Below the pieces are notes generated by a model. That model had not been told where the DNA came from. It saw only the letters and a list, made by a program, of their open reading frames with translations, and made no database searches. This document shows positions 7,921 through 44,245 of a stretch of 64,000 nucleotides of DNA, in pieces (within the stretch, counting starts at the first letter, position 1; each line of letters begins with the position of its first letter). The stretch lies in the NCBI RefSeq assembly GCF_001553565.1, contig NZ_CP014228.1:1178001-1242000 (forward strand), written 5' to 3'. The stretch is from Actinomyces radicidentis (GTDB taxonomy: Bacteria; Actinomycetota; Actinomycetes; Actinomycetales; Actinomycetaceae). A program made the translations under genes and the position numbers.

Positions 7921-9134
7921 GTCGTGCTCCCGTGCGAATCAGTGCGCCTGGGCACGGTGAGCGCGACGAGCCATCGCCCGTTGAGGTCGCCGGCGACGAG
8001 CTCCCCGCCCAGAGCCGAGGCTCGCGTGGCCAGGCCATTCAGGCCCTGGCCGCCACTCAGTGCGCCCCCTTGGTCAGGTTGCTCGTCGGCCGTCCGCGAC
8101 ACGAGCTCGACGACGAGAGAGTCCTGATCAAGACTGAGCTCGAGCGAAGCCTCGGACCCGGCCTTCGCGTACTTCACGATGTTCACGAGGGACTCCTGGA
8201 CCGCGATAGCCGCGAGCTCCCACTCGCTGTCGCCGACGGCGAGACGAGCCTCCTGCCAGGTGATACCGCGCGTCGACAGGCCGATCCCACGGGTCGCCAG
8301 CACCCGGACCCACCGCTCCGTCGGAGGGACCAGGTCCGCGGCGCCGGCCGACGTGGCGTCGCTCGAGGAGCTCGGCGTCTGACGCAGGCTGCCGACGAGA
8401 GCGCGGAGACTGTTCATCGAATCGGTCGCGGACTCCTCGATCCCCTGGGCCAACGCGACCTGCGCACTCTCGTGCAGCTGGGGGCGCAGGACGCGGGCGA
8501 GGGTCAGGACACGGGTCAGGTCCGTGGCGACCGAGTCGTGGAGCATGAGGGCGATCTCTGCGCGAACCTCAGCAGCCTGTGCTCGCCCCTCAGCCTGCGC
8601 GGCCTCGACCCTCAAGCGGGCCTCCTCCTGCGCACGGACGCCGCCCCGCATCGCCAGACCCAGCGAGATCGCGAGCAGGGAGATCAGCGTCAGTGCCGCG
8701 GGCTCGAGATCTGGTCGCGACGTCCCGATCAGGTTGGTGATCCAGTAGGCGATGAACCCGCCTGCTGCTCCCTTCCACCAGTCGCGTGAGATCCACTCCG
8801 CGAGCGGAATCACCACCAGGAAGGTAGCTGACGCGCTCGCGTTGGCGGCCAAGGAACCCCACAGCACGAAGGCCAGCGAGGCCGCGCCGGCGGCTCGGGG
8901 AAAGCGATGCACAAGGGGGACTGCGGCCACCACGCCGAGCGCCATGACCATCTTCCAGGGCTGAGGATCAGACTTGGTCGTCAGCCAGTATCCGACATCG
9001 AGGGCGCAGCAGACGGTCGCGGCTAGGAGGTAGCCGAGACTGCGCACGCTCAGACCGAGGGAGGCCTGCCCGTTTCGTCGCACCCGCACATTCAAACAGT
9101 TCGGCACTGCGGCAGAGACGGGAACCAGCGACAC
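7917..9134 (-). CDS. sensor histidine kinase, HisKA_3 / NarX-like type
   Basis: Up to 405 residues. Several N-terminal membrane segments are followed by a coiled dimerisation helix with the phospho-acceptor His near residue 199 (IALMLHDSVATDLTRVLTLARVL is the surrounding family pattern). The C-terminal ATPase domain is degenerate: an N-box-like VQESLVNIVKYA and a G-box GGQGLNGLATRASALGGEL. The start is uncertain. The frame opens at GTG 9134 without a good ribosome site, and GTG 9089 lies 2 nt after the stop of a possible small upstream gene. Its stop overlaps the response-regulator start, so the pair is co-translated. Confidence 0.9.
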   Translation of the reverse strand: MSLVPVSAAVPNCLNVRVRRNGQASLGLSVRSLGYLLAATVCCALDVGYWLTTKSDPQPWKMVMALGVVAAVPLVHRFPRAAGAASLAFVLWGSLAANASASATFLVVIPLAEWISRDWWKGAAGGFIAYWITNLIGTSRPDLEPAALTLISLLAISLGLAMRGGVRAQEEARLRVEAAQAEGRAQAAEVRAEIALMLHDSVATDLTRVLTLARVLRPQLHESAQVALAQGIEESATDSMNSLRALVGSLRQTPSSSSDATSAGAADLVPPTERWVRVLATRGIGLSTRGITWQEARLAVGDSEWELAAIAVQESLVNIVKYAKAGSEASLELSLDQDSLVVELVSRTADEQPDQGGALSGGQGLNGLATRASALGGELVAGDLNGRWLVALTVPRRTDSHGSTT

Positions 9135-30182: not shown

Positions 30183-31106
30183 ATGAGCGAGTACTTCGTG
30201 GGACGCGGCGAGAACGGGAACGACGCGGGCGGCGACCCCCTCGAGCCCCCGGTCCCCGGCCTGCCCCCCGAGGCCGATGACGCCGCCGTGGCGGGAGCCG
30301 CCGGTCCCGCCGAGCCCGAGCACGTCCGCTTCGGCATTCCCTTCAACGGCGTGGTCCCCGTCTGGCACGACGGCACCGAGATCACCTGGCACCGCCCCGC
30401 CGACGGCACCGACCCCGCGAACCTCCTCGGCCTCGGCGACGTCGAGACCGAGCCCGGCCCCTCGCCGACACCGGAGGGCTGGTCCGAGCGCGTCGAGACC
30501 GGCACCCTCGTCCCCGCCGGGTGGGCGGACGACCCCGCCGCCGCGGGCCTCAACTCGGCCACGGATGGCCCCGTCCTGCGCCTCCACCCCGCCCAGCCGA
30601 CGGGCCGGCGCGCCGGTGCCGTCGAGCGCGGGGCGGGTGCCGTCCTCCCGCTGGGGCCCGCCGTCAGCGTCGAGGAGGCCATGGGCGCCACCGCCGGCGA
30701 CTTCGACATCATCGGCTTCTCCGTGCACGTCGCCCGCCTCATGCTGCGCGCCGCCCGCGACGGAGCGATCCTCCTGCTCACCCTGCGCGCCCCCCGTGAC
30801 CCCGAGGCGCACCACCTGCTCTCCGCACCGAGCGAGGTCGACGCCGAGGGCGTCATGCGCTTCCACCTGGGCACGCTCCTCGAGGTGGAGACCGGCGCCT
30901 GGTCGCAGGCCACCCACCGCGACGGCATGGCCCTGCTCGACCTCGAGGTCCCCTACGACTCGCTCCTCACCGGCGCGGGGCCGGCCGCCGAGCAGGGGCT
31001 CGACGTCGAGAGGCTCGTCGCCCTGGCCCAGCCGGTCGTCGACGCCGTGCTCGCCCCCGGCTTCCCCTTCGCGCTCGGCGCCTCCTTCATCCTGCCGACG
31101 CGCTGA
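30183..31106 (+). CDS. conserved-looking protein of unknown function
   Basis: 307 residues from ATG 30183, just 18 bp after the corrected hydrolase stop. The N-terminal 45 residues are acidic, Pro/Gly/Ala-rich and probably disordered. The rest is soluble, with no membrane segment and no motif I recognise. Codon usage is strongly GC3-biased as in neighbouring genes, which supports a real gene. It may be the last gene of the MurNAc cluster, but nothing in its sequence links it to that pathway. Confidence 0.7.
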   Translation: MSEYFVGRGENGNDAGGDPLEPPVPGLPPEADDAAVAGAAGPAEPEHVRFGIPFNGVVPVWHDGTEITWHRPADGTDPANLLGLGDVETEPGPSPTPEGWSERVETGTLVPAGWADDPAAAGLNSATDGPVLRLHPAQPTGRRAGAVERGAGAVLPLGPAVSVEEAMGATAGDFDIIGFSVHVARLMLRAARDGAILLLTLRAPRDPEAHHLLSAPSEVDAEGVMRFHLGTLLEVETGAWSQATHRDGMALLDLEVPYDSLLTGAGPAAEQGLDVERLVALAQPVVDAVLAPGFPFALGASFILPTR

Positions 31107-31280
31107 GCCGCCGTCGCCGTCGGCGACCGACCCCGGGGAGGAGCCCGCCCGCCGCAGGTGGGACCAAGGGCCCAGTGGGTGCGTGCTCGTGGGCGGAGAG
31201 CGGTGTGGACCGCGCCCGGTCCGGTGCGGCGTCGTAACCTGCGACAGGACGTGCACACCACCACGGCGCATGATCACCCC

Positions 31281-32111
31281 ATGCTCTCCGTGACCCAGAC
31301 GCTCGTCGCGCAGGAGGCCTCCTCGGTCGCCCGCTCCGGCGGCATGCGCCGTCCCCTCCCTTACGTCGTCTCCTCCATGCTCGCCGGCGCCTACATCGGC
31401 ATCGGCGGCACCTTCATGCTCGCCGCGGCCGGCCCCTTCAAGGCGGCCTCCAGCCCCGCCACCCCGATGGTCTCCGGCGTCGCCTTCTCCATCGGCCTGC
31501 TCCTGTGCGTCTTCGGCGGCGCCGAGCTCGGCACGAGCGCCATGATGACCTTCGCCGTCGGCGGCTTCCGCAAGGTCACCGGCTGGGGCAAGGGCCTGGC
31601 CGCGCTCGTCGTCATGCTGCTGGGCAACCTCGCCGGCGCGATCCTCCTCTCCGCGATCCTGCGCGGCACCAACATCCTGGCCGCCGACACCGCAGCGGGG
31701 AAGATGCTCGCCGGCGTCGTCACCACCAAGGGCGGCCTGCCCGTGGGGACGATCTTCTTCCGCGGCATCATGTGCAACGTCCTCGTCTGCCTCACCATCT
31801 GGTGCACCACCCGCCTCGAGAACGAGGTCGCCAAGGCCGTCGCCGTCTTCTCCTTCATCGGCGCCTTCGTCGCCTGCGGCTTCGAGCACGTCGTCGCCAA
31901 CATGACCTTCTTCGGCCTCGGCCTCATGTACCACGTCGACGGCGCCACCATCGGCCTCGCCGCCCGCAACCTCCTGTGGTCGGGCCTGGGCAACCTGGTG
32001 GGCGGCGCGATCTTCGTGGCCGGCGCCTACGTCCTCGCCCACCGCACCGAGGAGGGCTCCGCCGAGGAGAAGGCCGCCCTCGAGGCCGCCGCCCCGGCCC
32101 GCGTCCACTGA
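31281..32111 (+). CDS. formate/nitrite transporter family channel
   Basis: A 276-residue pentameric-channel subunit with six hydrophobic segments and FNT motifs (GGTFMLAAAGPF, VFGGAELGTSAMM, RGIMCNVLVCLTIW, FEHVVANMTFFGLGL). The family moves formate, nitrite or hydrosulfide; which one is not decided by these motifs. The start is ATG 31281; an open extension upstream lacks homology. The gene is followed by a perfect 12-bp hairpin terminator. Confidence 0.9.
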   Translation: MLSVTQTLVAQEASSVARSGGMRRPLPYVVSSMLAGAYIGIGGTFMLAAAGPFKAASSPATPMVSGVAFSIGLLLCVFGGAELGTSAMMTFAVGGFRKVTGWGKGLAALVVMLLGNLAGAILLSAILRGTNILAADTAAGKMLAGVVTTKGGLPVGTIFFRGIMCNVLVCLTIWCTTRLENEVAKAVAVFSFIGAFVACGFEHVVANMTFFGLGLMYHVDGATIGLAARNLLWSGLGNLVGGAIFVAGAYVLAHRTEEGSAEEKAALEAAAPARVH

Positions 32112-32176
32112 CCCGATCGGGCTAGCCGGACGGGGCCGCCGCCGGCCCCGCCCGACCGGCCCGAACCCCGACCACC

Positions 32177-32218
32177 GCGCCCCGGCGCGGGAGCTCCGAG
32201 AGCCCTGCGCCGGGGCGC
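32177..32218 (+). terminator. terminator of the FNT channel gene
   Basis: GCGCCCCGGCGC (32177-32188) pairs perfectly with GCGCCGGGGCGC (32207-32218). Confidence 0.7.
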
Positions 32219-32587
32219 CGTCGTGCTCGGAGCGACGGTGGTGGGATCTGCATCTCGTGACGTGCGCTTGAAAGTGCTCCGTCGCAACTTCGCCACCGGT
32301 ATGTGGACTGGTTCGTGTGCTCCGGCCACCGTGCCCATTTCGTTTCTGCTGGGCAACTTGCTGGGGGTCCGTGCTGGGCACCTGCCCTGCAGGTGGGACC
32401 GTCAATATGAGAGGTCGCGGGTCTGCAAGAAACAGTATTGACAATGCCTCGATCCTGATGGTGTCGATATAGTGGCCTGTGGGGTCGGCGGTCCGACATT
32501 GGGGCTTGAAACGTGACCTGACCCGGGCCCATTCACGTCAGACCGTCATGGCATCCTTCAGACACGCGCTTGGCGCCGAAGTTGAGC
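32219..32587. other. gap left of the ISL3 element
   Basis: No gene that I can support. Its base composition is less GC-rich than the surroundings. It contains half-sites resembling the ArsR sites inside the ars transposon (GTCAATATG at 32401-32409, ATTGAC near 32437, GTCGATAT near 32463), but not in the compact dyad arrangement. Confidence 0.35.
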
Positions 32588-34021
32588 GGCTCTTCACAAT
32601 TCGGGGTGTATGTGTGGTCTGAATCCGCCGGCTTCGAGGAGTGCGCGGGCGATGTAGTTGGTGAGGTTGCGGAAGCCCAGGGCCAGGCCACGCAGGTGCT
32701 CGAGGCGACCGTTCACGGCTTCGGTAGGTCCGTTGCTCGTGCGCGGCCGGTCGAAGTATGCCAGGACGTCGCAGGCGCGTCTGGTCAGGGTGGGGCCGAG
32801 CTTGCGCAGTTCTACCAACGCCTCAGGCACACCCTCGGCGAGGGCGTCGATCACGGGACTCATCTCCACGCGGCCAGCTGCCCTGTCGGGGTGACGGTAG
32901 GCGCAGATCATGGGCTGGTAGATCCCCCAGGTGCACTCGACTTGCACGTGCCGGTCCCCAGCGAAGAGCTTGTCAAGGCGCTCGTGCTGGCGGTCGGTGA
33001 GCAGGTCAGCCCCGGTGCGCAGGGTCGGCCGCGCGGTGTAGAGCGGGTCGCCCTTGCGTCCGCGGTGTCCGTGCAGTTCCTGCTGGACCCGGCGGCGGCA
33101 CTCATCGAGAGCGTCCCCGGCCAACCGGATGACGTGGAAGGGATCCATAACCGTCACGGCGTGCGCCAGCTCCTCGGTGGTGGCGGTCTTGAAGCCCGCG
33201 AACCCATCCATGGCCACGACCTCGATCCCATCGCGCCAAGCCTGGTCCCGCTCGGCCAGCCAGTCCTTGAACGCCTTCTTCGACCGGCCTTCGACCACGT
33301 CCAGCAGGCGTGCCGGGCCGGTGTCATCCCTGATCGGGGTGAGGTCGATGATCACGGTGACGTACTTGTCACCGCCCCGGGTGTGCCGCCACACGTGCTC
33401 ATCGACCCCGACGACCTTGACACCGTCCAGGCGGGTCGGGTCCTCGATGAGCACACGCCGGCCCTCAGCCAGGACCGCGTCGTTGGCGGTGTTCCACGCC
33501 ACGCCCAGTCCTTGGGCAACTCGGGCCATCGTCAGGTGGCCGACGACGATCCCGACCAGCCCCCACCACAGGCCGGCGCGGGAGATCTTGGCCCGCGGCG
33601 GCGCCGCGGCGGTGGTGTCCTGAGGCCACACGTGCGAGCACTCCTTGCAGCGGTAGCGGCGCGCGGTGAGCACCAGCGTGGTAGGGCGCCACCCGAACGG
33701 CTCGTGCGCCAACTGCCTGCTCACCGTGTCACGGGGCACGCCCTGGCAGCCGCACCGCCTGCACCAGTCGTCCGGCTCCACGACCCGGCACGTCAGCACG
33801 GACCGGTCAGGCTCGAGCAGCTGGCCGGTGACCTCCACACCGAGGCCGTCGAGGCGGGTGAAGGTAGTCAGGTGGGGCGCGTGAAGGTAGCGTCAGGCAC
33901 GTCGAGGTCTTCCGGACGGGTTGTGTGAGAACTCCCATCATCGGAAGACCTCGACCCTCACCCCGACACCGACGCGCCGCCCCAGGTCGCACCACAGTTA
34001 CACCCTCATCTGTGAAGAGCC
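32588..34021 (-). mobile_element. ISL3-family insertion sequence
   Basis: A 1434-bp element bounded by inverted ends GGCTCTTCACAATTCGGGGTG-like (32588 onward) and its partner at 34021, which share GGCTCTTCACA, as in ISL3 elements. Flanking bases (AGTTGAGC and GGGAAACG) do not match, so no target duplication is present. The right end stops 7 bp before a CRISPR repeat and nothing CRISPR-like remains on the left. This fits an insertion into the array followed by a deletion or rearrangement. Confidence 0.82.
32594..33838 (-). pseudogene. ISL3 family transposase, probably frameshifted near its N-terminus
   Basis: The open part encodes 414 residues from GTG 33838. It has N-terminal zinc-finger cysteines (CRRCGCQGVPRD, RCKECSHVWP) and a DDE domain (VVGVDEHVW, VAMDGFAGFK, TSNGPTEAVNGR). 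Upstream, a GTG at 33900 opens VPDATFTRP, and the expected continuation DLTTFTRLDGLG resumes one frame over. The usual N-terminus is thus disrupted by one missing base near 33870. Translation could still start at 33838, but the protein would lack about 20 N-terminal residues. A 14-bp inverted repeat (33901-33914/33942-33955) lies in the element's upstream region. Confidence 0.75.
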
Positions 34022-34028
34022 GGGAAAC

Positions 34029-34211
34029 GTGCACCCCGCGTGAGCGGGGATGATCCGGTTAAGCCCCCGCCCATTCGTGACACACCCCAGTGCACCCCGC
34101 GTGAGCGGGGATGATCCGCGTCACCGGTGGTCGGGTTGTCGATGTGCCACGTGCACCCCGCGTGAGCGGGGATGATCCGTCGATCTGAATGGAGGCCTCG
34201 CGCACCTTCGG
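34029..34211. CRISPR. type I-E CRISPR array remnant (three repeats, three spacers)
   Basis: Three identical 29-bp repeats, beginning GTGCACCCCGCG and ending GGGGATGATCCG, occupy 34029-34057, 34090-34118 and 34151-34179. The intervening spacers (34058-34089 and 34119-34150) are 32 bp, the usual type I-E length. A third 32-bp spacer occupies 34180-34211. Its following repeat is displaced to 42623-42651 by an inserted transposon. The inner inverted repeat (CCCCGCG/CGGGG) is characteristic. No cas gene or recognisable leader is in the window, so adaptation or interference would depend on genes elsewhere, if any. Confidence 0.93.
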
Positions 34212-34383
34212 GTGGCTGTGTCAAGCTAACCCGGCCCCGGAATGACGGCCTCAATTGGCTCCACCCCGTTACGTGCGGACAGGATCCGTTCGGGATCGGA
34301 TAGCGGACACCTACCCGCCCGGTTTCGAAGCGAGCCAGCAGGCCCGTGGCACGCGCGTGGGGTTGCGTGCCATGGGGTTGGTG

Positions 34384-34707
34384 TCAGTGCTGGGGCGGAA
34401 AGCGCCTCTTGACGACCCCGCGGGTCACGCCCTTCCAGTCGGTGTTGTCGGTGGCGATGGTGCCCCGTGTGGTGTCCCTGTAGCCGGCCTCGTCGATGTG
34501 GGTGGCCTGGCGCGTGGTGTAGTTCCACGGCGCGCCGCTGGCTTCGGAGGTTCGCGTGGCAGCCGCTTCGGGGGCGGGCTCTTGGCGCTCGGGCTGGACG
34601 GCCGACGCTTCGGCCTTGGGCTGGACGGCGGGCGCGGGGGTCTGCGGGGTGAACGGGCTGCGTCCTGTGTCGATGGTGTAGCCGTCGACGGAGGTGTAGC
34701 CGCGCAT
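34384..34707 (-). CDS. small protein of unknown function, ars transposon cargo
   Basis: 107 residues from ATG 34707 behind AGGAAGGA. The middle is Pro/Ala/Glu-rich and probably disordered. The two ends (SVDGYTIDTGRSPF and TDNTDWKGVTRGVVKRRFP) look conserved in style but match no family I know. A hairpin (34346-34354/34365-34373) lies just beyond its stop. It is the gene nearest the left terminus of the transposon and on the same strand as acr3. Confidence 0.6.
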   Translation of the reverse strand: MRGYTSVDGYTIDTGRSPFTPQTPAPAVQPKAEASAVQPERQEPAPEAAATRTSEASGAPWNYTTRQATHIDEAGYRDTTRGTIATDNTDWKGVTRGVVKRRFPPQH

Positions 34708-34848
34708 GGTTCCTTCCTGGGTTGATCGTTCTAGCGAATGGGTTGGGGTTGGACGTTCGCGGGGGCGGTCGCCCGGGGTCGTGTGGTTGGCCGGGTCACT
34801 GGGTGGGTGGTGTGGTGATGGGCGCTCCTGTGGGGGTGAGAAGGCTGG

Positions 34849-35940
34849 TCAGTGCTGGCTGTCGACGGGGTAGTGTTTGCGCAGCCAGAGGCTGATGTAG
34901 ACGAGTCCGATGAGTGCCGGGACCTCGATCAGGGGGCCGACGACGCCGGCGAGGGCTTGGCCGGAGGTGACACCGAAGGTGGAGATGGCGACGGCGATGG
35001 CGAGTTCGAAGTTGTTGCCGGCGGCGGTGAAGGCGAGGGTGGTGGTGCGTTCGTAGCCCAGGTGCAGACTCCGTCCGAGCAGGTGGCCGATGCCCCACAT
35101 GACCGCGAAGTAGACCAGGAGCGGCAGGGCGATGCGGACGACGTCGAGGGGGCGGCTGGTGATCTGTTCGCCCTGCAGGGCGAACAGCACGACGACGGTG
35201 AACAGAAGCCCGTACAGCGCCCAGGGGCCGATCTTCGGCAGGAAGCTGTGCTCGTAGGTTTCGCGGCCCCAGGCGTTCTCGCCCAGGGTGCGGGTCAGGT
35301 ATCCGGCGACCAGCGGGATGCCGAGGAAGATCAGGACGCTCTTGGCGATCTGCCAGGCGGAGACGTTCAGGCTGGTCTGCTCGAGGCCGAGCCAGGAGGG
35401 CAGGGCGGACAGGTAGAACCAGCCGAGCGCGGCGAAGGCGACGACTTGGAAGATCGAGTTGATCGCGACGAGCACGGCGGCCGCTTCGCGGTCACCGCAG
35501 GCCAGGTCGTTCCAGATGATGACCATGGCGATGCAGCGCGCGAGCCCGACGATGATCAGGCCGGTGCGGTAGGTGGGCAGGTCGGCGAGGAAGGTCCATG
35601 CCAGCGTGAACATCACCAAGGGACCGACGACCCAGTTCAGCAGCAGGCTGGAGACCAGCATGCGCCGGTCGTGGGTGACGGTCCCGAGCCGGTCGTATCG
35701 GACCTTGGCGAGCACCGGGTACATCATCACGAGCAGCCCGATGCTGATGGGCAGCGAGACGCCGTCCACCTCGACGGCGGCCAGCGCCGTGCCGATGCCG
35801 GGGACGACACGGCCCAGCAGGAGCCCGACGACCATGGCCGCGAGGATCCACACGGGCAGGTAGCGATCGAGCGTGGACAGCTGCTGCGCCACGGGCGTCC
35901 GGGTCGGTGTGGACGGTGGTTCGGTGGTGTTTACGGCCAT
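34849..35940 (-). CDS. acr3: arsenite efflux transporter Acr3
   Basis: A 363-residue membrane protein with about ten membrane segments of the BASS superfamily. The essential membrane Cys136 lies in VGLARCIAMVIIWNDLACGD, and the later Glu in AAGNNFELAIAVAI, both diagnostic of Acr3. It exports arsenite from the cytoplasm. The start is ATG 35940 behind GAGGTAG. It is separated from the flavoprotein gene by its own operator region with an ArsR-like dyad (35983-36004), so it can be induced independently. The frame is open upstream through the operator, but that part is not used. Confidence 0.95.
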   Translation of the reverse strand: MAVNTTEPPSTPTRTPVAQQLSTLDRYLPVWILAAMVVGLLLGRVVPGIGTALAAVEVDGVSLPISIGLLVMMYPVLAKVRYDRLGTVTHDRRMLVSSLLLNWVVGPLVMFTLAWTFLADLPTYRTGLIIVGLARCIAMVIIWNDLACGDREAAAVLVAINSIFQVVAFAALGWFYLSALPSWLGLEQTSLNVSAWQIAKSVLIFLGIPLVAGYLTRTLGENAWGRETYEHSFLPKIGPWALYGLLFTVVVLFALQGEQITSRPLDVVRIALPLLVYFAVMWGIGHLLGRSLHLGYERTTTLAFTAAGNNFELAIAVAISTFGVTSGQALAGVVGPLIEVPALIGLVYISLWLRKHYPVDSQH

Positions 35941-35982
35941 GACTACCTCACATTGACGATCATCGATATGAACGTCCCTCAT

Positions 35983-36004
35983 CATATAGACAACCGTCAA
36001 TATG
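35983..36004 (-). promoter_or_regulatory. ArsR-type operator upstream of acr3
   Basis: CATATAGAC-AACC-GTCAATATG is an inverted repeat matching at 8 of 9 positions per arm. The same half-site and 4-bp spacing recur upstream of arsR/arsD at 38017-38038. A second, looser site (CATTGACGAT...ATCGATATG, 35951-35970) lies between it and the acr3 start. Confidence 0.65.
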
Positions 36005-36181
36005 GCAAGTCACGGGGTGTTCGTCGTCGAGATTCAACCCTTTCGGGTGCGTCGGGGTGCGGCCATGGGCTAGGCCGGGTGGAGGTCACCTGTCATGGCG
36101 GGGGTGGGGATGGCTTGGCGGCGGCGTGCTGACGATTGGCCCGTCGGGGGTGTGGGCGGGTGGTGAGCGCGCGCTGAGGAA

Positions 36182-36211
36182 CGCCCCCGGGGTTCACGCT
36201 CGGCGGGGGCG
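36182..36211 (-). terminator. terminator of the arsR-flavoprotein unit
   Basis: CGCCCCC (36182-36188) pairs with GGGGGCG (36205-36211), just beyond the flavoprotein stop codon at 36229. Confidence 0.45.
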
Positions 36212-36228
36212 CTCATTACTGCAGGGGG

Positions 36229-37623
36229 TCAGGGTTGGGTGCGAGTGCTCGCTGGCTGGTGCTGGGTCACCCATGCCTGCGCGGCGATCTGGATGGCGTC
36301 CCAGGGCGAGCCCAGCGGCGGTGTGTAGGCGAGGTCGAGGTCATTGATGCCGGCCACGTCCATGCCGTGGAAGAGCGCGGTGGCGTAGGTGTCGACCCGC
36401 TTGGCGGTCCCGGTGGTCAGGTGCCCGACGAGCTGGGCACCTAGCAGCCTGCCGGTGGCGCGGTCGCCGGTGATGCGGATGGTGATGGGGTGGGATCCCG
36501 GGTAGTAGGCCTTGTGGTCGTCGGGCGCCGAGGTGGTGCTGGCGGGGTCGAACCCGGCGGCGATGGCTTCGTGCTCCCGCAGCCCGGTGCGGGCTGCGAC
36601 CAGGTCGAACACCTTGAGCACCTGGGTGCCGATGCTGCCCGCGAATCGGGCGTTGCCGCCCAGCGCGTTCTCGCCGGCGACCCGTCCCTGTTTGTGGGAG
36701 GTGGTGCCCAGTGGGAGGTAGGTGGTGCCGAGCAGGCGATGGTGGGTGGCGACGCAGTCGCCGGCGGCCCACACGTGTGGCAGGCCGGTGGCCATCGTCT
36801 CGTCGACGAGCACCGCACCGCGGGGCCCGGTCTGGGCTCCAGATCGGACGAGCAGGTCGGTCTCGGGGGTGACACCGACCACGACCAGAACGAGGTCCAC
36901 ATCCCACGACAGGGCTTCGCCGTCTCTGGCCTGACCGGTCACGTGCAGGCCGTCAGCACCCTTGGCTATGCCGGTGACGCTCGTACCGGTGTGGATATCG
37001 ACCCCGTGCCGCACGAGTTCGGCATGGACGAGGGTACCGAGTTCGGGGTCGAGGGTGGACAGTACCTCTGGGGCGGCCTCGACCTGGGTGACGTGGATGC
37101 CGCGGGTGGTGAGGCCTTCGGCCATCTCCAGGCCGATGTAGCCGGCGCCGACAACCAAGGCGGTGCGCGGCTGCAGCTTCTCGAGGGAGTCGCCCAGGGC
37201 GAAGGTGTCGCCCATGGAGTGCAACAGGTGGACGCCGTCGGCGGCGCCGAGGGTGTCGAGTCCGGTGATCGGGGGACGCACGGGCCGGGCGCCGGTGCCG
37301 ACCACCAGCGCGTCGTAGTCGACCAGGGCGGGGGTGTCGTCGGGTCCGATGGCCTCGAGCTGACGGGCGTCGACGTCGATGCGGGTGGCGCGCGTGTCGA
37401 GCAGCAGGTGCAGGCCCGCGGCCTCCAGGTCGGCGCGGGTGCGGTGTGCCAGGTGGTGCCAGTCTCCGACCTCGCCGGAGATGTAGTAGGGGATCCCGCA
37501 GATGGAGAAGTTCGGGTAGGCGTCGGCCACCACGACGGTGACCTCGGTCGACGGGTCGAGTTCGCGGGCACGTAGCCCCGCGGAGATGCCGGCATCGCTG
37601 CCGCCGACGCACACAACGTGCAT
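36229..37623 (-). CDS. FAD/NAD(P)-dependent pyridine nucleotide-disulfide oxidoreductase, ars-associated
   Basis: A 464-residue flavoprotein of the CoA-disulfide reductase/NADH oxidase group. The N-terminal FAD loop VCVGGSDAGISAG is followed by a single redox Cys42 in SICGIPYY. The NAD-binding loop VVGAGYIGLEMAEGL, the ATG-like VVGTGARP and the second FAD motif VWAAGDC are present. The C-terminal dimerisation domain is present. Homologues often accompany actinobacterial ars operons, presumably in redox handling of arsenic or thiols, but the reaction is unproven. It lies 27 bp after arsR on the same strand. Confidence 0.88.
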   Translation of the reverse strand: MHVVCVGGSDAGISAGLRARELDPSTEVTVVVADAYPNFSICGIPYYISGEVGDWHHLAHRTRADLEAAGLHLLLDTRATRIDVDARQLEAIGPDDTPALVDYDALVVGTGARPVRPPITGLDTLGAADGVHLLHSMGDTFALGDSLEKLQPRTALVVGAGYIGLEMAEGLTTRGIHVTQVEAAPEVLSTLDPELGTLVHAELVRHGVDIHTGTSVTGIAKGADGLHVTGQARDGEALSWDVDLVLVVVGVTPETDLLVRSGAQTGPRGAVLVDETMATGLPHVWAAGDCVATHHRLLGTTYLPLGTTSHKQGRVAGENALGGNARFAGSIGTQVLKVFDLVAARTGLREHEAIAAGFDPASTTSAPDDHKAYYPGSHPITIRITGDRATGRLLGAQLVGHLTTGTAKRVDTYATALFHGMDVAGINDLDLAYTPPLGSPWDAIQIAAQAWVTQHQPASTRTQP

Positions 37624-37650
37624 GGGGTTGTCCTTTCGGGTCGCCGGGCC

Positions 37651-37998
37651 TCAGCCCAGCATGGCGAGGTACTCGTGCAACGCGGCCAGCCCTTCGGGTC
37701 GCGGGGTGAAGTGCGCCCACTTGCCGCGCATTTCCTTGTCCACCAGCCCGGCCTCGACCAGCTTCTTCAGGTGGTGTGACAGCGTCGGCTGGGTCACGCC
37801 GAACACCTCGGGCATGTGACACGCGCACACGCTGGAGCACCGGCTGGCCGCGATGTGGTGCAGGATCCGCAGCCGCACCGGGTCAGCGAGCGCCTTGACG
37901 ACGAGCGCAACCCGTTCCGCCTGCTCCATCGAGATCGTGCCGCCACCCGGCGCGCAGGCCTCGGCGGCGGCCATCGGGGCTTCCAGCAGTTCGGTCAT
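37651..37998 (-). CDS. arsR: ArsR-family arsenite-responsive repressor
   Basis: A 115-residue winged-helix repressor. The metal-sensing cysteines Cys54, Cys58 and Cys60 are in CSSVCACHMPEVFG, and the recognition helix follows (GVTQPTLSHHLKKLVEAGLV). It should release its operators when As(III) binds. It is transcribed leftward with the flavoprotein gene, and divergently from arsD-arsA, across an intergenic region bearing two ArsR-like dyads, so it controls both directions and itself. Confidence 0.95.
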   Translation of the reverse strand: MTELLEAPMAAAEACAPGGGTISMEQAERVALVVKALADPVRLRILHHIAASRCSSVCACHMPEVFGVTQPTLSHHLKKLVEAGLVDKEMRGKWAHFTPRPEGLAALHEYLAMLG

Positions 37999-38016
37999 GC
38001 AGACATGCTACCCGCT

Positions 38017-38073
38017 CATATTGACACCTGTCGATATGTGTGCCACGCTCACTCATATCGACGGTCATCAATG
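38017..38073. promoter_or_regulatory. paired ArsR operators between arsR and arsDA
   Basis: CATATTGAC-ACCT-GTCGATATG (38017-38038) is an inverted repeat with 8 of 9 arm matches. A second CATATCGAC half-site with a partial partner follows at 38054-38073. The arrangement would let ArsR cover both divergent promoters. Confidence 0.65.
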
Positions 38074-38110
38074 CGTGATGGTCGTCCTCCACCCGAGTCG
38101 GAGGTTTCCC

Positions 38111-38533
38111 ATGCCCGTCATCCGTGTCTTCGAACCTGCACTGTGTTGCAACACCGGGGTCTGCGGCCCCGACCTCGACCAGGAGCTGGTCGACTTCACC
38201 GCCGCGGTCAACGCCCTCAAGGCGCAGGGGGTGGATGTCCACCGCGCCAATCTGGCCAGCGAGCCGGCGCAGTTCGCGGAGCACCCCGTGGTCGTCAAGT
38301 TCCTGCAGGCCGCCGGCTCCGAGGGGCTACCCCTGACGCTGGTCGACGACGTCACCGTGCTGGCCGGCCGCTACCCGCGCCGCGACGAGCTGGAGCGCTA
38401 CGCCGGCCTGAACCCGACGAAGGACGCCCAGCCCCAGGGCGGATGCTGCGGCCCGCAGCAGGAAGCCCCCGCCGCGTCCACTGGCTGCTGTGGGCAGCCC
38501 GCCACTACCAGCACCGTGTCCGGCTGCTGCTGA
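38111..38533 (+). CDS. arsD: arsenic metallochaperone ArsD
   Basis: A 140-residue protein from ATG 38111 behind GGAGG. The N-terminus IRVFEPALCCNTGVCGPD places Cys12, Cys13 and Cys18, the As(III)-binding triad. The C-terminal tail carries three further vicinal Cys pairs (GGCCGP, TGCCGQ, SGCC). ArsD hands arsenite to ArsA and raises its ATPase activity. The next gene is arsA, 28 bp downstream. Confidence 0.96.
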   Translation: MPVIRVFEPALCCNTGVCGPDLDQELVDFTAAVNALKAQGVDVHRANLASEPAQFAEHPVVVKFLQAAGSEGLPLTLVDDVTVLAGRYPRRDELERYAGLNPTKDAQPQGGCCGPQQEAPAASTGCCGQPATTSTVSGCC

Positions 38534-38561
38534 CCCCGACTCGAGCTTTCAGGAGATTGTG

Positions 38562-40319
38562 GTGACCCAGTTTCTCGACAACCCGCCCCGGCACTTTTTC
38601 TTCACTGGCAAGGGCGGTGTCGGCAAGACCAGCATCGCGTGCGCCACGGCCGTGCACCTCGCCCACCAGGGCAAGCGGGTGCTGCTGGTCAGCACCGACC
38701 CGGCGAGCAACATCGCCCAGGTGTTCGGTGCCACCATCGGCAACAAGATCACCCCGATTCCGCAGGTGCCCGGCCTCGACGCGCTGGAGATTGACCCCGA
38801 CGAGGCCGCTGAGGCCTACCGCAACAAGATCCTGGAACCGGTGCGCGCGGTCCTGCCCATCAAGGAGATCGAGGCCATCACCGAGCAGCTGTCGGGCTCC
38901 TGCACCACCGAGATCGCCTCGTTCAACGAGTTCACCGACCTGCTCGCCGACACCCAGGCCACCGCCGGCTACGACCACGTCATCTTCGACACCGCCCCCA
39001 CCGGCCACACCATCCGCCTGCTGCAGCTGCCCGGCAACTGGACCAGTTACCTTGACAACGGCAAGGGCGACGCGTCCTGTCTGGGGCCCATGAGCGGGCT
39101 CGAGAAGAACCGCGCCACCTACCGCGCCGCCGTCGAGGCTCTCACCGACCCCACCAGCACCCGCCTGGTGCTCGTCGCCCGGGCCCAGCAGTCCACGCTG
39201 CGCGAGGTCGCCCGCACCCTGGACGAGCTCGCCGAGCTCGACATCCACGCCGCCAACCTGGTCGTCAACGGCGTCTTGCCCGCCGCGGCCGCCACCGACG
39301 ACCTGTCCCGCGCCATCCACGACCGCGAACAGGCCGCGCTCGCTGCCATGCCTGCCGCCCTGGCAGCCCTGCCGCGCGACACGGTGAGCCTCAAGAGCGT
39401 CAACATGGTCGGCCTGGAGGCGCTCGCCACCCTGTTCCACGACGAGGACGCCCCGCAGGCCGACGCGCAGGACACCGGCGGGCAGGGCATCGGCCAGCAG
39501 CCGTACCTTGCCGGCCTGGTCGACCAGCTCGCCGAGGCCGACCATGGGCTCGTGATGACGATGGGCAAGGGCGGTGTCGGCAAGACCACCGTCGCAGCCG
39601 CCATCGCCATCGCCCTGGTGCAGCGCGGCAAGAAGGTCCTGCTCACCACCACCGATCCCGCCGCGCACCTGTCGACCACCCTCGGCAACGACGTCGACGG
39701 GCTCGAGGTCAGCGCCATCGACCCTGAGAAGGCCATCCAGGAGTACCGCGACCACGTCATGGCCTCCAAGGGCGCCAAGCTCGACGACGCCGGCCGCGCC
39801 GCCCTCGCCGAGGACCTCATGAGCCCCTGCACCGAGGAGATCGCCGTCTTCCAGCAGTTCAGCCGCGCCGTGAACAAGGCCCGCGACCAGTTCGTCATCA
39901 TGGACACCGCCCCCACCGGCCACACCCTGCTCCTGATGGACGCCACCGGTTCCTACCACCGCGACATCACCCGCCACCTCGACGACGACCAGCGCGGCCA
40001 CGTCACCACCCCGCTGATGCGGCTCCAAGACCCCGACCACACCAAGATCATCGTGGTCACCCTGCCCGAGACCACCCCCGTCACCGAGGCGCAGGCCCTG
40101 GCCAGCGACCTGGAACGCGCCAACATCCACCCGTGGGCGTGGGTCGTGAACAACTCCCTCGCGGCAGCCCACCCCAACAGCCCACTGCTCGCCACCCGCG
40201 CACGCTCCGAGCAACAGCAGCTGGACGCGGTGGCCGCCACCACCAACCGCATGGCCGTCATCCCCACCCAGACCCGCGAACCCGTCGGCACGCAACAGCT
40301 CACCGCTCTCAGCAACTGA
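38562..40319 (+). CDS. arsA: arsenical pump-driving ATPase ArsA
   Basis: A 585-residue protein from GTG 38562, 6 nt after AGGAG. There are two homologous ATPase halves, each with a deviant P-loop GKGGVGKT (residues 16-23 and about 350) and a DTAPTGHT signature. The metal-site cysteines occur in SGSCTTEI, ASCLGPMSG and SPCTEEIAVF, equivalent to the three ligands of E. coli ArsA. It energises arsenite extrusion, normally through ArsB; here Acr3 is the only pump, as in other ArsDA-Acr3 operons. The stop lies 1 bp from the converging istB remnant. Confidence 0.96.
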   Translation: MTQFLDNPPRHFFFTGKGGVGKTSIACATAVHLAHQGKRVLLVSTDPASNIAQVFGATIGNKITPIPQVPGLDALEIDPDEAAEAYRNKILEPVRAVLPIKEIEAITEQLSGSCTTEIASFNEFTDLLADTQATAGYDHVIFDTAPTGHTIRLLQLPGNWTSYLDNGKGDASCLGPMSGLEKNRATYRAAVEALTDPTSTRLVLVARAQQSTLREVARTLDELAELDIHAANLVVNGVLPAAAATDDLSRAIHDREQAALAAMPAALAALPRDTVSLKSVNMVGLEALATLFHDEDAPQADAQDTGGQGIGQQPYLAGLVDQLAEADHGLVMTMGKGGVGKTTVAAAIAIALVQRGKKVLLTTTDPAAHLSTTLGNDVDGLEVSAIDPEKAIQEYRDHVMASKGAKLDDAGRAALAEDLMSPCTEEIAVFQQFSRAVNKARDQFVIMDTAPTGHTLLLMDATGSYHRDITRHLDDDQRGHVTTPLMRLQDPDHTKIIVVTLPETTPVTEAQALASDLERANIHPWAWVVNNSLAAAHPNSPLLATRARSEQQQLDAVAATTNRMAVIPTQTREPVGTQQLTALSN

Positions 40320-40320
40320 C

Positions 40321-40845
40321 TCAGGGAGTGACGCCTACCCGCCGGACCCAACTGGTGGATCCGGCGGTAGGCGACTGCCTCTTTGCAGGGTGCCACCCGG
40401 CCTGTCGGGCTCGGGTGTGGGCGAGGCGGTAGGAGTTGGTGCCGGTTTCGATGATGGTGGCGTTGTAGGTGAGGCGGTCGACGATTGCTGCGCACAGGCG
40501 GGGGTCGGTGAAGGTGTCGGTCCAGGCGGAGAAGGACTGGTTGGAGGCGATCGCGATGGCGTTCTTCTCCTCGTGTTCGGTGAGGACCTGGAACAGAAGT
40601 TCGGCGCCTCGCCGGTGGAGTTCCATGTAGCCGAGCTCGTCAATGACGAGGAGGTCGACGCGGCCGTAGCGGTTGATGGTCTTGGTGAGTTGTTTCTCGT
40701 CGGCGGCTTCGACGAGCTCGTTCACGAGCCGGGTGGCGAGGGTGTATCGGACGCGGTAGCCCTGTTCGGCGGCGGCGGTGCCGAGCGCGATGAGCAGGTG
40801 GGACTTGCCGGTGCCGGAGTCCCCGATCAGGCACAGGGGGTCGCC
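40321..40845 (-). pseudogene. istB: IS21 helper ATPase IstB, N-terminally truncated
   Basis: About 175 codons from GDPLCLIGDSGTGKSHLLIA (Walker A) through LVIDELGYMEL (Walker B) and SNQSFSAWTDTFTDPRLCAAI to ETGTNSYRLAHTRAR. Normal IstB proteins have about 85-90 further N-terminal residues. Here the reading frame upstream is non-homologous and the homologous part begins inside the 3' end of istA (which stops at 40827). An internal deletion that joined istA to mid-istB explains this. No clear start codon or ribosome site serves the remnant. Confidence 0.75.
40332..40373. terminator. bidirectional hairpin between arsA and istB
   Basis: CGCCTACCCGCCGGA (40332-40346) pairs with TCCGGCGGTAGGCG (40360-40373) with one bulged base. 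It lies at the meeting point of the converging genes. Confidence 0.55.
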
Positions 40846-42468
40846 GGGGCGGGGTCGGGTTGGCGTCGGCGCAGGAGTTCGTCGTAGGCGGTGACGGTGG
40901 GCAGGGGCCGGGGGTCTTCGGGCAGGTGCGCGATGACGTGGTGCGGGTTGGTGGGGCGTCGGGGTGGCAGGTTCACGACCGTCTCGCCCCTGGTCGGGCT
41001 GGCTGGGGCGGGTGTGTGGCCGGTGGCATGGCGGCGGGCTTCGACGGCGACGACGTCGGGGCTGATCGCGCCCACCGACAGGGCCGAGGTGATGCCGGCG
41101 ATCACCGCGTGGGACGGGAGGGATCGGTGGAGCAGGAGCGCGTCGATCAACGCTTGGGTCCCGGCCACGTCGCCGCTGGTCTTGCGGGCTGCGGCCCAGA
41201 ACGCGTCGTGGGCCGCGGTGAATGCTCCGGCGGCGCGGGCCTGCGCGAGGGCGGTGGAACCGGGGAACGCGCCGGGCTTGTGCCGCAGCACTTCGAGGTA
41301 GTGGTCCAGCTCGACCCGGGTCACGCCACGGGTGCCGAGGCGAGGGTGGGTGGCGAGGACGGTGCGGCCCTCGAACACGACCACGCACGAGGCCCGCGGG
41401 GACACGCGGACGCGTTGGCCGATGAGGTGCGCGGGGACGGAGTACTTGACCATGCGGACGGTGATCAGGGCGGAGCGGTCGACGCGGGGGTGCAGGATCA
41501 GGCCGGGGTCGAAGTCGTCGGCCGGCAACGGTGCCAGGTGGGGCAGCTCGGCGTGGTGGTCCTGCCCGATCGTGCTCGCGTGCCCGGTGATGCGGCGGGT
41601 GTTGTCGTCGTGCTCCCAGGCGCGGATCTTGTCGTTGAGATCGTCCAGGGTGGCGACTTCGGGCATGGGGGTGAGGTGGTTGCGGCGGAACCATCCGACC
41701 TCGCCCTCGACGCCGCCCTTCTCGTGGACGCCGTCGATGCCGGGCTGGCAGTAGAACGCGTCGAAGCCGTAGTGGGAGCGGAACAGCACCCAGCGTTCGT
41801 TCTCGTCGCGTAGCCGGTCGCCGCCGTGGATGACCTGGACGACGGCGGAGGTGAGGTTGTCGTAGCGGATGTGGCGGGTGGAGATGCCGCCCAGGGCATG
41901 GAAGGCCTCGATGTGTCCTTCGAGGAAGGCCTCCTGTCCGCCGGTCGGGTAGACGCGGTGGATGGCCTTGCCGGAGCGGGACAGGCGGTAGACGAACATG
42001 TGGCACTTGGTCTTGACGCCGTCCAGGATGACGTAGACCTCGCCGAAGTCGACCTCGGCCTCCGCGCCGGGGGCGTGGTCCTGCGGCACCATCGCCTCCA
42101 CCCGGCGCCCGGCCTCCAGATCGATCTGCGCGCGCCTGACCCGGACGTAGTCGCGCACCGTGGAGTAGGACAGGTCGGTGGCGCCGTGCTCGTCGCGCAG
42201 CCGGGCCAGGATCCTGGTCGCGGTATGGCGCTGCTTGCGCGGCGCGGTCAGGTCATAGGTGAGCGATCTCGTCGATCGCCGGCTTGTACGGGTCCAGGCG
42301 CGGTGCTGTGCGGACCGGTTTCTTGCGGGGTGGGGGTTCGGCGGCGGCGAGGGCCTGGCGGACGGTGCGGCGGTGGACTCCGTGTTTGCGGGCGAGCTCG
42401 CGGATGGACAGGCCATCGACTCGCGCGTCGTGGCGGATGTCGGCGTACAGCGGCACTCGTGATCCCAT
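40827..42468 (-). pseudogene. istA: IS21-family transposase IstA, frameshifted
   Basis: The N-terminal 71 codons from ATG 42468 encode the IS21 helix-turn-helix (SIRELARKHGVHRRTVRQAL) and end at TGA near 42253 after PAIDEIAHL. The rest (DLTAPRKQRHTATRILARL onward) resumes in another frame and runs to 40827. It includes the DDE core (AEVDFGEVYVIL, RYDNLTSAVVQV, GVHEKGGVEGEVGWFRR). One extra base around 42255-42262 accounts for the break. Together with the truncated istB, this should leave the transposon unable to move by itself. Programmed frameshifting is not usual for IS21. Confidence 0.8.
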
Positions 42469-42528
42469 CTTGGCTCCCTTGCCCCTGGCGACTGGTTCCC
42501 AGTGATGGGGACCAGCGTGAAGGGGTGG

Positions 42529-42617
42529 GGCCAGTTCAGACCGTCAACACCCCGGCAAGTCGCACGCAGGGCCAGATCAGGCCGTCACAACGGGGCCGAA
42601 CCAAGCTGGCACAACCA
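42529..42617. repeat. right-terminal direct repeats of the IS21-family transposon
   Basis: GGCCAGTTCAGACCGTCA (42529-42546) and GGCCAGATCAGGCCGTCA (42570-42587) are 16/18 identical direct repeats 41 bp apart, followed by the terminal inverted repeat. Multiple subterminal transposase-binding repeats are typical of IS21. One related copy is present near the left end (about 34229-34246, inverted). Confidence 0.7.
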
Positions 42618-42622
42618 TTCGG

Positions 42623-42651
42623 GTGCACCCCGCGTGAGCGGGGATGATCCC
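42623..42651. CRISPR. displaced terminal CRISPR repeat
   Basis: A 29-bp repeat matching those at 34029-34179 except for its last base (C instead of G). It begins right after the transposon, and its first G belongs to the duplicated TTCGGG. It is not followed by another repeat, so it is the end repeat of the array. 42652-42880, beyond it, shows no gene; a GC-rich palindrome (42754-42771) is the only structure noticed. Confidence 0.92.
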
Positions 42652-42880
42652 GTGCGGCCCGCGCCGGTGGGCATGGTGGGGCCATGCCCCCCAGCGTAGG
42701 CGGGTGTGCCCTAGCTATCGGCACAGACGGGGTCGACGCTTGGAGCCCAATCTGGGCTTCGGCCGAAGCCTCTGACTGAGTGAGTCGCGCTTGCGACGCT
42801 GGTAGGTCAGCCCTGTTCCATCGTCTGCGGACGAGGGCGCAATCGCTCGTGGGATAGCGACCGTCAGAGAGAATGCCTGT

Positions 42881-44245
42881 ATGACCCAGATCCGCGACCT
42901 GTCCCAGCCCACCACCCCTGACGACGCCGTCCAGCGCCTCATGGCCCAGGAGACCGAGGAGCGACGCGCCACCGCCGCCCCGCCCGAGGCCCTCGGCGAG
43001 AGCCAGGGCGCCGACGCTGCCCTGCGCGAGCGCCTCGGTGCCGCCGTCGCGGCGCTGCGCGGCGAGATCCTCGAGCTCTCCCACGACGTCCACGACCACC
43101 CTGAGGTCGGCTACACCGAGCACCACGCCATGGCCGCCGTCGCCTCCCTCCTCGAGCGCCACGGCGTCGCCTTCGAGCAGGGCGTCTACGGCATGGAGAC
43201 CGCGCTGCGCGCGCAGATCGGCTCCGCCGACGCCGGTGCCCCGACGATCGCGATCCTGTGCGAGTACGACGCGCTGCCCGGCATCGGTCACGGCTGCGGT
43301 CACAACGTCATGTGCGCTAACTCCGTGGGCGCCTTCCTCGCCCTCGCCGAGCTCGAGGCGGCCGCCCCCGGCACCCTGCCCGGCCGCGTCATCCTCCAGA
43401 CCACCCCCGCCGAGGAGTCCGACACCGCTAAGGAGCGCCTTGCCCTGGCCGGCATGCTCGACGGCGTCGACGCCGCCATCCAGACCCACTCCTACGCCCG
43501 TGACGTCGTCCACCAGACCTGGCTCGGGGTGCGCCGGATGCGCGCCGTCTTCACCGGCGTCCCCTCCCACGCCTCCTCCCAGCCCTTCATGGGCCGCAAC
43601 GCGCTCGACGCCGCCACCCTCGCCCTCACCGGCATCGGCCTGCTGCGCCAGCAGATCCTCCCGATGGACCGCGTCCACGCGATCGTCGTCGACGGAGGCC
43701 AGGTCCCCAACATCATCCCGGAGCGCACCGAGCTGTCCCTCTTCGTGCGCTCCAAGCACCTCGAGACCCTTAAGGACCTCGTGGGTCGGGTCGAGGACGT
43801 CCTGCGCGGCGCCGCCCTCATGACCGGCACGGGCCTGGAGATCCTCACGCCCGACTACTCCAGCGAGATGCCGGTGCGCCCCAATGGCCCCCTGTCGGCC
43901 GCCTGGACCCGTTCCCAGCGCGAGCGCGGCCGCGACCCGCTGCCCTTCGGCGTCCTGTCCGAGACGGTCGCCGCGGGGACGGACTTCGGCAACGTCTCCC
44001 AGCGCGTGCCCGGCATCCACCCGCTCATCGGCGTCACCTCCGGGCCCGCCGTCGCCCTCCACACCCGCGAGATGACGGCGGCCGCCGGCTCCGGGACGGG
44101 GGACGCCGCGGCCGTCGACGGCGCCTACGGGCTCGCCGCCGTCGCCCTGGACTGGCTCGTGGACCCCGCGCTGCGCGAGGCCGTCCGCGCCGACTTCGAG
44201 GCGAGCGGCGGCGCCGTCGACGTCGCCCGCTTCTGGGACAACTGA
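42881..44245 (+). CDS. M20-family metallopeptidase / amidohydrolase
   Basis: A 454-residue protein. Metal-binding motifs are CEYDALPGIGHGCGHN, the Glu pair in QTTPAEES and the C-terminal His in PAVALHTREM, as in the peptidase M20D/aminoacylase group. The dimerisation domain lies in the middle (GVPSHASSQPFMGRNALDAA). It probably hydrolyses N-acyl amino acids or dipeptides; the exact substrate is unknown. The start is ATG 42881. The N-terminal 45 residues are a variable extension. The gene ends at a long hairpin terminator. Confidence 0.9.
   Translation: MTQIRDLSQPTTPDDAVQRLMAQETEERRATAAPPEALGESQGADAALRERLGAAVAALRGEILELSHDVHDHPEVGYTEHHAMAAVASLLERHGVAFEQGVYGMETALRAQIGSADAGAPTIAILCEYDALPGIGHGCGHNVMCANSVGAFLALAELEAAAPGTLPGRVILQTTPAEESDTAKERLALAGMLDGVDAAIQTHSYARDVVHQTWLGVRRMRAVFTGVPSHASSQPFMGRNALDAATLALTGIGLLRQQILPMDRVHAIVVDGGQVPNIIPERTELSLFVRSKHLETLKDLVGRVEDVLRGAALMTGTGLEILTPDYSSEMPVRPNGPLSAAWTRSQRERGRDPLPFGVLSETVAAGTDFGNVSQRVPGIHPLIGVTSGPAVALHTREMTAAAGSGTGDAAAVDGAYGLAAVALDWLVDPALREAVRADFEASGGAVDVARFWDN

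Follow-up and report, generated by a model that had tools for sequence, protein, structure and literature searches.

A single mobile element of the IS21 family, carrying an arsenic-resistance (ars) operon, appears to have inserted into a short array of clustered regularly interspaced short palindromic repeats (CRISPR) in the genome of Actinomyces radicidentis. We analyzed a 64,000-nucleotide stretch of this genome (contig NZ_CP014228.1, positions 1,178,001 to 1,242,000; here called the window, whose numbering is used throughout), in which the element occupies 8405 bp at positions 34213 to 42617, with no strand assigned. We consider it about 90% probable that this is an IS21-family unit with an ars operon, that is, a transporter insertion sequence (IS) or IS21 unit transposon, which inserted with a 6-bp duplication into a type I-E-like array. 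The ends, the duplication, the restored period of the array, the cargo, and near-identical copies in other actinobacterial genera can all be read directly from the DNA.

The insertion site was reconstructed from the array. Twenty-eight nucleotides of the CRISPR repeat are exact in the window at 34029, 34090, 34151, and 42623; the 29th base is G in all copies except that at 42623, where it is C, and counting this base gives spacers of 32 nucleotides (nt). The leader side of the array (34029-34211, plus strand) comprises repeats at 34029-34057, 34090-34118, and 34151-34179 and spacers at 34058-34089, 34119-34150, and 34180-34211, and the terminal repeat (42623-42651, plus strand, ending in C rather than G) is displaced by the element. 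Two copies of TTCGGG, at 34207-34212 and 42618-42623 (both plus strand), flank the insert as a target-site duplication. When the element and one TTCGGG were excised in silico, repeat 4 fell at 34212, exactly 61 nt past repeat 3, restoring the 61-bp period. Because the terminal G of each TTCGGG copy is base 1 of the repeat, the target comprised the final 5 nt of spacer 3 together with the first nucleotide of repeat 4 and was not the junction itself. A preliminary description of this DNA had reported the repeats, an insert of about 8.4 kb, the TTCGGG copies, and the restoration of the array by deletion, all of which are present in the sequence; its placement of the insertion exactly at the spacer/repeat junction was off by one base, and the position looks like chance.

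The ends of the element carry imperfect inverted repeats that pair as TGGCTGTGTCAAGCTAACCCGGCCCCGGAATGACGGCCTC / TGGTTGTGCCAGCTTGGTTCGGCCCCGTTGTGACGGCCTG, confirming the inverted repeats noted earlier and adding internal direct repeats to them. The istA-side end (A end, 42528-42617, minus strand) contains two direct GACGGYCTGAwCTGGCC repeats at 42528-42546 and 42569-42587, and the cargo-side end (B end, 34213-34258, plus strand) contains one internal TGACGGCCTCAATTGG repeat. Assignment to IS21, also proposed in the preliminary description, is supported by NCBIfam and Pfam matches, by the multiple terminal repeats, and by a duplication within the range of 4 to 8 bp. The same description had listed acr3, a flavoprotein gene, arsR, arsD, and arsA as cargo, and these genes are indeed enclosed by one pair of IS21 ends.

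The same unit is found in two other genera. In Acidipropionibacterium thoenii, an element of 8794 bp (L021, 70-8863) is 98.3 to 98.8% identical to that of the window across its whole length (98.8% over the cargo), and its transposition genes are intact, encoding an IstA of 555 amino acids and an IstB of 269. On a plasmid of Cutibacterium modestum, 98.6% identity extends over the far end, the full set of ars genes, istB, and a portion of istA. The flanks differ among the three copies, so that a search for the ars unit between different flanks, suggested in the preliminary description, gave a positive answer. Judged from these unrelated sites, the passengers move together with the IS. Apart from the window, no further ars-type ends were detected in 213 genomes of the family and 395 of the class; the ars cargo type is therefore rare.

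The IstA protein was used as the query in a scan of one genome per species across 84,980 species, and end mapping delimited 50 related elements of 3.1 to 10.4 kb. Perfect duplications of 5 to 8 bp were present in 37 of the 48 elements with both flanks available, with 6 bp being the commonest length (29/37), and the 37 duplicated targets had no common motif. Flanks matched over at least 5 bases in 37/48 true pairs versus 5/2256 mismatched left/right pairs, and all five of the latter were two copies at one site or recombined or shared flanks. Thus, the target duplications exceed chance.

These relatives differ chiefly in what they carry. Between istB and the far end, the 50 elements contain 0.37 to 7.9 kb of DNA, which groups into 30 cargo clusters. 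Besides arsenic resistance, cargo types include copper and zinc functions, acetyltransferases, oleate hydratase, and others: a copper-type P-type ATPase, a multicopper oxidase, and a two-component system in the L004 group; acetyltransferases in L003, L007, and L011; cation efflux in L033; pyridine-nucleotide disulfide reductases in the L037 and L069 groups; MscL in L035; and oleate hydratase with regulators in L084. The module running from the A end through istA and istB (∼2.6 kb) is nearly constant, being 98.4 to 98.6% identical over 2609 bp between the A. thoenii ars element and the copper elements L004 and L006. Similarity between ars and copper elements stops near the istB stop codon, with none beyond. 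In the module tree, copper cargo appears in separate places, ars lies adjacent to copper elements of Actinomyces, and cargo types are scattered. By these sequence comparisons, a constant module is joined to interchangeable cargo arms, each bringing its own B end, and arms would most likely be exchanged when elements recombine within the module that they share. Two 3066-bp copies in Tsukamurella ocularis (L026, 9749-12814; L029, 9749-12814) lie ∼63 kb apart in the same orientation with reciprocal flanks (GTTGATC..GGGGCT and GGGGCT..GTTGATC), which we read as a sign of replicon fusion or recombination between the copies.

One branch of the lineage may have a more defined way of acquiring genes. 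In L003, L005, L007, L011, L016, L017, L018, and L084, two stretches are shared, one of ∼45 to 55 bp directly following istB and one of ∼72 bp preceding the far end, with the motifs GCGTGACAT..ATCTGCCGA after istB and TGCCGCTG before the far end. Further copies of the post-istB motif lie between cargo genes in L011 (5232-5895, with the end at 8598) and L016 (12334-20198). The palindromic TGCCGCTGTCGGAGCTAGCGTCCGACCATGCCGC is present three times in L016, and a 574-bp stretch is common to L011 and L016 at 99% identity. The ars and copper arms lack the slot motif, and no structured RNA was found in the ars element or in the L016 arm. We tentatively propose a cargo platform, in which a near-constant IS21 module has repeatedly gained arms and, in this branch, genes might be inserted into a defined slot as cassettes, site-specifically and in the manner of integrons; we regard this model as possible but rather doubtful.

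The cargo of the window element is a complete ars operon. From the istA end (42617) to 34213, the gene order is istA, istB, arsA, arsD, arsR, a gene for a FAD-dependent disulfide oxidoreductase, acr3, and a gene for a 107-amino-acid protein; arsA and arsD are transcribed toward istAB, and the remaining four cargo genes toward the far end. The acr3, arsR, arsD, and arsA genes are intact, and each product scored above a curated family cutoff: the 585-amino-acid arsenical pump-driving ATPase ArsA (38562-40319, plus strand; TIGR04291, 815.7 bits), the metallochaperone ArsD (38111-38533, plus strand; NF033727), the ArsR/SmtB-family repressor ArsR (37651-37998, minus strand; NF033788), and the arsenite efflux transporter Acr3 (34849-35940, minus strand; TIGR00832, 443.5 bits). 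The oxidoreductase (36229-37623, minus strand) resembles CoA-disulfide reductases and scored below the equivalog cutoff. The 107-amino-acid protein, encoded between acr3 and the B end (34384-34707, minus strand), has no Pfam match; it is retained in the A. thoenii element, and the C. modestum annotation places a hypothetical protein at the same position. Two 22-bp palindromes, CATATTGACACCTGTCGATATG in the divergent arsR/arsD region (38017-38038, overlapping a promoter-like site) and CATATAGACAACCGTCAATATG upstream of acr3 (35983-36004), are predicted ArsR operators. Their consensus is CATATnGACAnCnGTCnATATG, and each coincides with a promoter-like site, no others being found in 34000-42700; the chance expectation of 0.01 is optimistic, since the pattern was built from these same two sites. 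The cargo is best described as a predicted arsenite-resistance operon under the putative control of ArsR.

Both transposition genes of the window copy are disrupted. The istA pseudogene (40827-42468, minus strand) contains a 1-nt frameshift near 42265: relative to the A. thoenii gene, one extra nucleotide near codon 67-68 brings a stop after 71 residues from the normal start. Its C terminus is altered by the deletion in istB, and its product still scores above the cutoff of the IS21 transposase model NF033546 (183.9 versus 160). The istB remnant (40403-40852, minus strand) has lost 389 bp, including the start codon and N-terminal part, matches the IstB_IS21 profile at positions 101 to 236 only, and scores below the cutoff because it is truncated; in the intact A. 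thoenii element, both models score above their cutoffs. The rest of this genome yielded neither a complete IstB nor a second similar IS21 copy. Given the frameshift, the 389-bp deletion, and the lack of a complete IstB in the genome, the window copy is not expected to be self-mobile and is, by its sequence, transpositionally dead. Autonomous transposition is a property of active IS21 members and is not required for membership by descent. The IS21 transposon reading of the preliminary description holds, although it overlooked the disruption of istA and istB and the frequency with which this lineage carries cargo.

The interrupted array itself looks like a relic, with mobile elements touching both ends. 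Its repeat occurs in only four copies in the whole 3.05-Mb genome. It folds as a stable hairpin of the type I-E-like kind, and palindromic repeats of 28 to 29 nt with 32-nt spacers fit a type I-E array. The repeat differs by one base from that of a 100-copy array in a congener (G021), which adjoins a complete type I-E cas3-cse1-cse2-cas7-cas5-cas6e-cas1 operon (L127, 1088-9866). In the 3.05-Mb genome of A. radicidentis, no Cas1, Cse1, or Cas7e was found in a search that did not include Cas3. The orientation of the repeats places the expected leader to the left of the array, where an ISL3-family element (32588-34021, minus strand) ends 7 bp upstream of repeat 1, with no target duplication (flanks AGTTGAGC / GGGAAACG); this element may be responsible for the loss of the leader and cas genes. 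A full-length copy of the ISL3 element, 98% identical, and many weaker matches occur elsewhere in the genome. The IS21 insertion detached only the terminal repeat and spared spacers 1 and 2. From the missing Cas proteins and the ISL3 element at the expected leader, we infer that the array was already derelict and that the insertion carried little immune cost. The preliminary description had the ars genes splitting an immune array; insertion into a CRISPR array stands, but to speak of a split immune array is an overstatement. The spacers had no exact match in viral contigs, and their similarity to phages was at chance level only.

This array lies in the interval 31106-42881, between the gene at 30183-31106 and an M20 peptidase gene. 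The flanking genes are ∼150 to 220 bp apart in congeners G010, G016, and G018, and 6.7 to 13 kb of other genes separate them in several other congeners. As the locus is empty in some congeners and filled in others, it counts as a variable site within the genus.

Several observations weigh against this account of a cargo-bearing element inserted into an array. The uninterrupted array, sought in related genomes as the preliminary description had suggested, was absent from the M20 locus in 14 congener regions, and among 49 congeners only G021 has the repeat, with 1 mismatch and at another location; the empty site is accordingly shown by internal reconstruction alone. No target duplication flanks the intact A. 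thoenii copy. Because the Escherichia coli control was not detected by the models for Cse1 and Cas7e, the absence of cas genes rests mainly on Cas1. The 1-nt frameshift in istA could be an assembly error; the deletion in istB is too large for that. Finally, the order of events, with the array derelict before insertion and the transposase decaying afterward, is one that we infer.

Other explanations for the arrangement were considered. The unit could be a composite transposon, or a product of homologous recombination between two IS21 copies with one module lost. In support, target duplications are missing from several relatives, which is what recombination between copies would produce. The window copy, however, is flanked by a 6-bp duplication of its own and contains only one module, a layout common in the clade, which makes this origin very unlikely for the window insertion; such a route may apply instead to the origin of the cargo arms. 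It is still less probable that CRISPR arrays or repeats are preferred targets of the IS21 lineage and that the position was selected, for example, to disable immunity against a carrier plasmid. The insertion does touch a repeat boundary; however, the 37 motif-free duplications speak against selection of the site, no array with this repeat was present at the other IS21 loci examined, and the host array lacks Cas1, Cse1, and Cas7e partners and kept spacers 1 and 2. Least probable of all is a resident ars island beside which an IS21 copy landed, mimicking cargo. The degraded state of the copy and the commonness of ars genes in actinobacteria would suit such a history, but both parts lie within a single pair of IS21 ends that has one target duplication, two other genera have the unit of istAB, ars genes, and B end at different sites, and the CRISPR array flanks the whole unit. 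This last explanation is already contradicted and would become tenable only if both junctions were misassembled.

We therefore favor insertion of one cargo-bearing IS21 element, for which the following course may be proposed. The element would have entered the genome horizontally, with a plasmid as its probable vehicle. Its two ends, enclosing istA, istB, and the ars operon, would have been joined to a target made up of 5 nt from the end of spacer 3 and the first nucleotide of the terminal repeat; as is established for IS21, IstA would have cut and joined the ends with the aid of the IstB ATPase. Decay of istA and istB presumably followed insertion and would have fixed the ars operon in place.

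Taken more broadly, an IS family usually deemed passenger-free carries whole operons across actinobacterial genera, human-associated and dairy species included, so that a common transposition machinery can mobilize resistance to arsenic, copper, and zinc. The CRISPR aspect is of lesser weight, being a clean insertion footprint in a relic array with no evidence of an attack on immunity. In the literature searched, which did not cover ISfinder, we found no paper on IS21 elements with ars cargo and no account of a multigene IS21 lineage with exchangeable cargo.

Classic IS21 elements are ∼2 to 2.5 kb long and passenger-free. The window element shares with IS21 insertion sequences the tandem istA and istB genes, TG...CA ends with multiple internal repeats, and duplications of 5 to 8 bp, but it differs in bearing 6.2 kb of cargo between istB and the far end and in the disruption of its istA and istB. 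Like resistance unit transposons of the Tn3/Tn21 type, it combines, between one pair of ends, a module for transposition with one for resistance cargo; in contrast, it shows no sign of a Tn3 transposase, resolvase, or res site, and the transposition genes are of the IS21 type. Tn7-like transposons, including CRISPR-associated transposons, likewise combine a transposase and an AAA+ helper ATPase with variable cargo, TnsC being such a helper, like IstB. Here, however, there are no Tns proteins and no use of guide RNA, and the CRISPR array is the target rather than part of the element. The closest parallel is the transporter IS, an already known kind (PMC9330008, PMC10132070) defined as an IS with passenger genes (PMC9330008): a single IS whose ends enclose genes unrelated to transposition, with a duplicated target. 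Whereas the examples in PMC10132070 carry one extra open reading frame, the window element carries a complete predicted regulated metal-resistance operon and belongs to a lineage with 30 cargo clusters of up to 7.9 kb.

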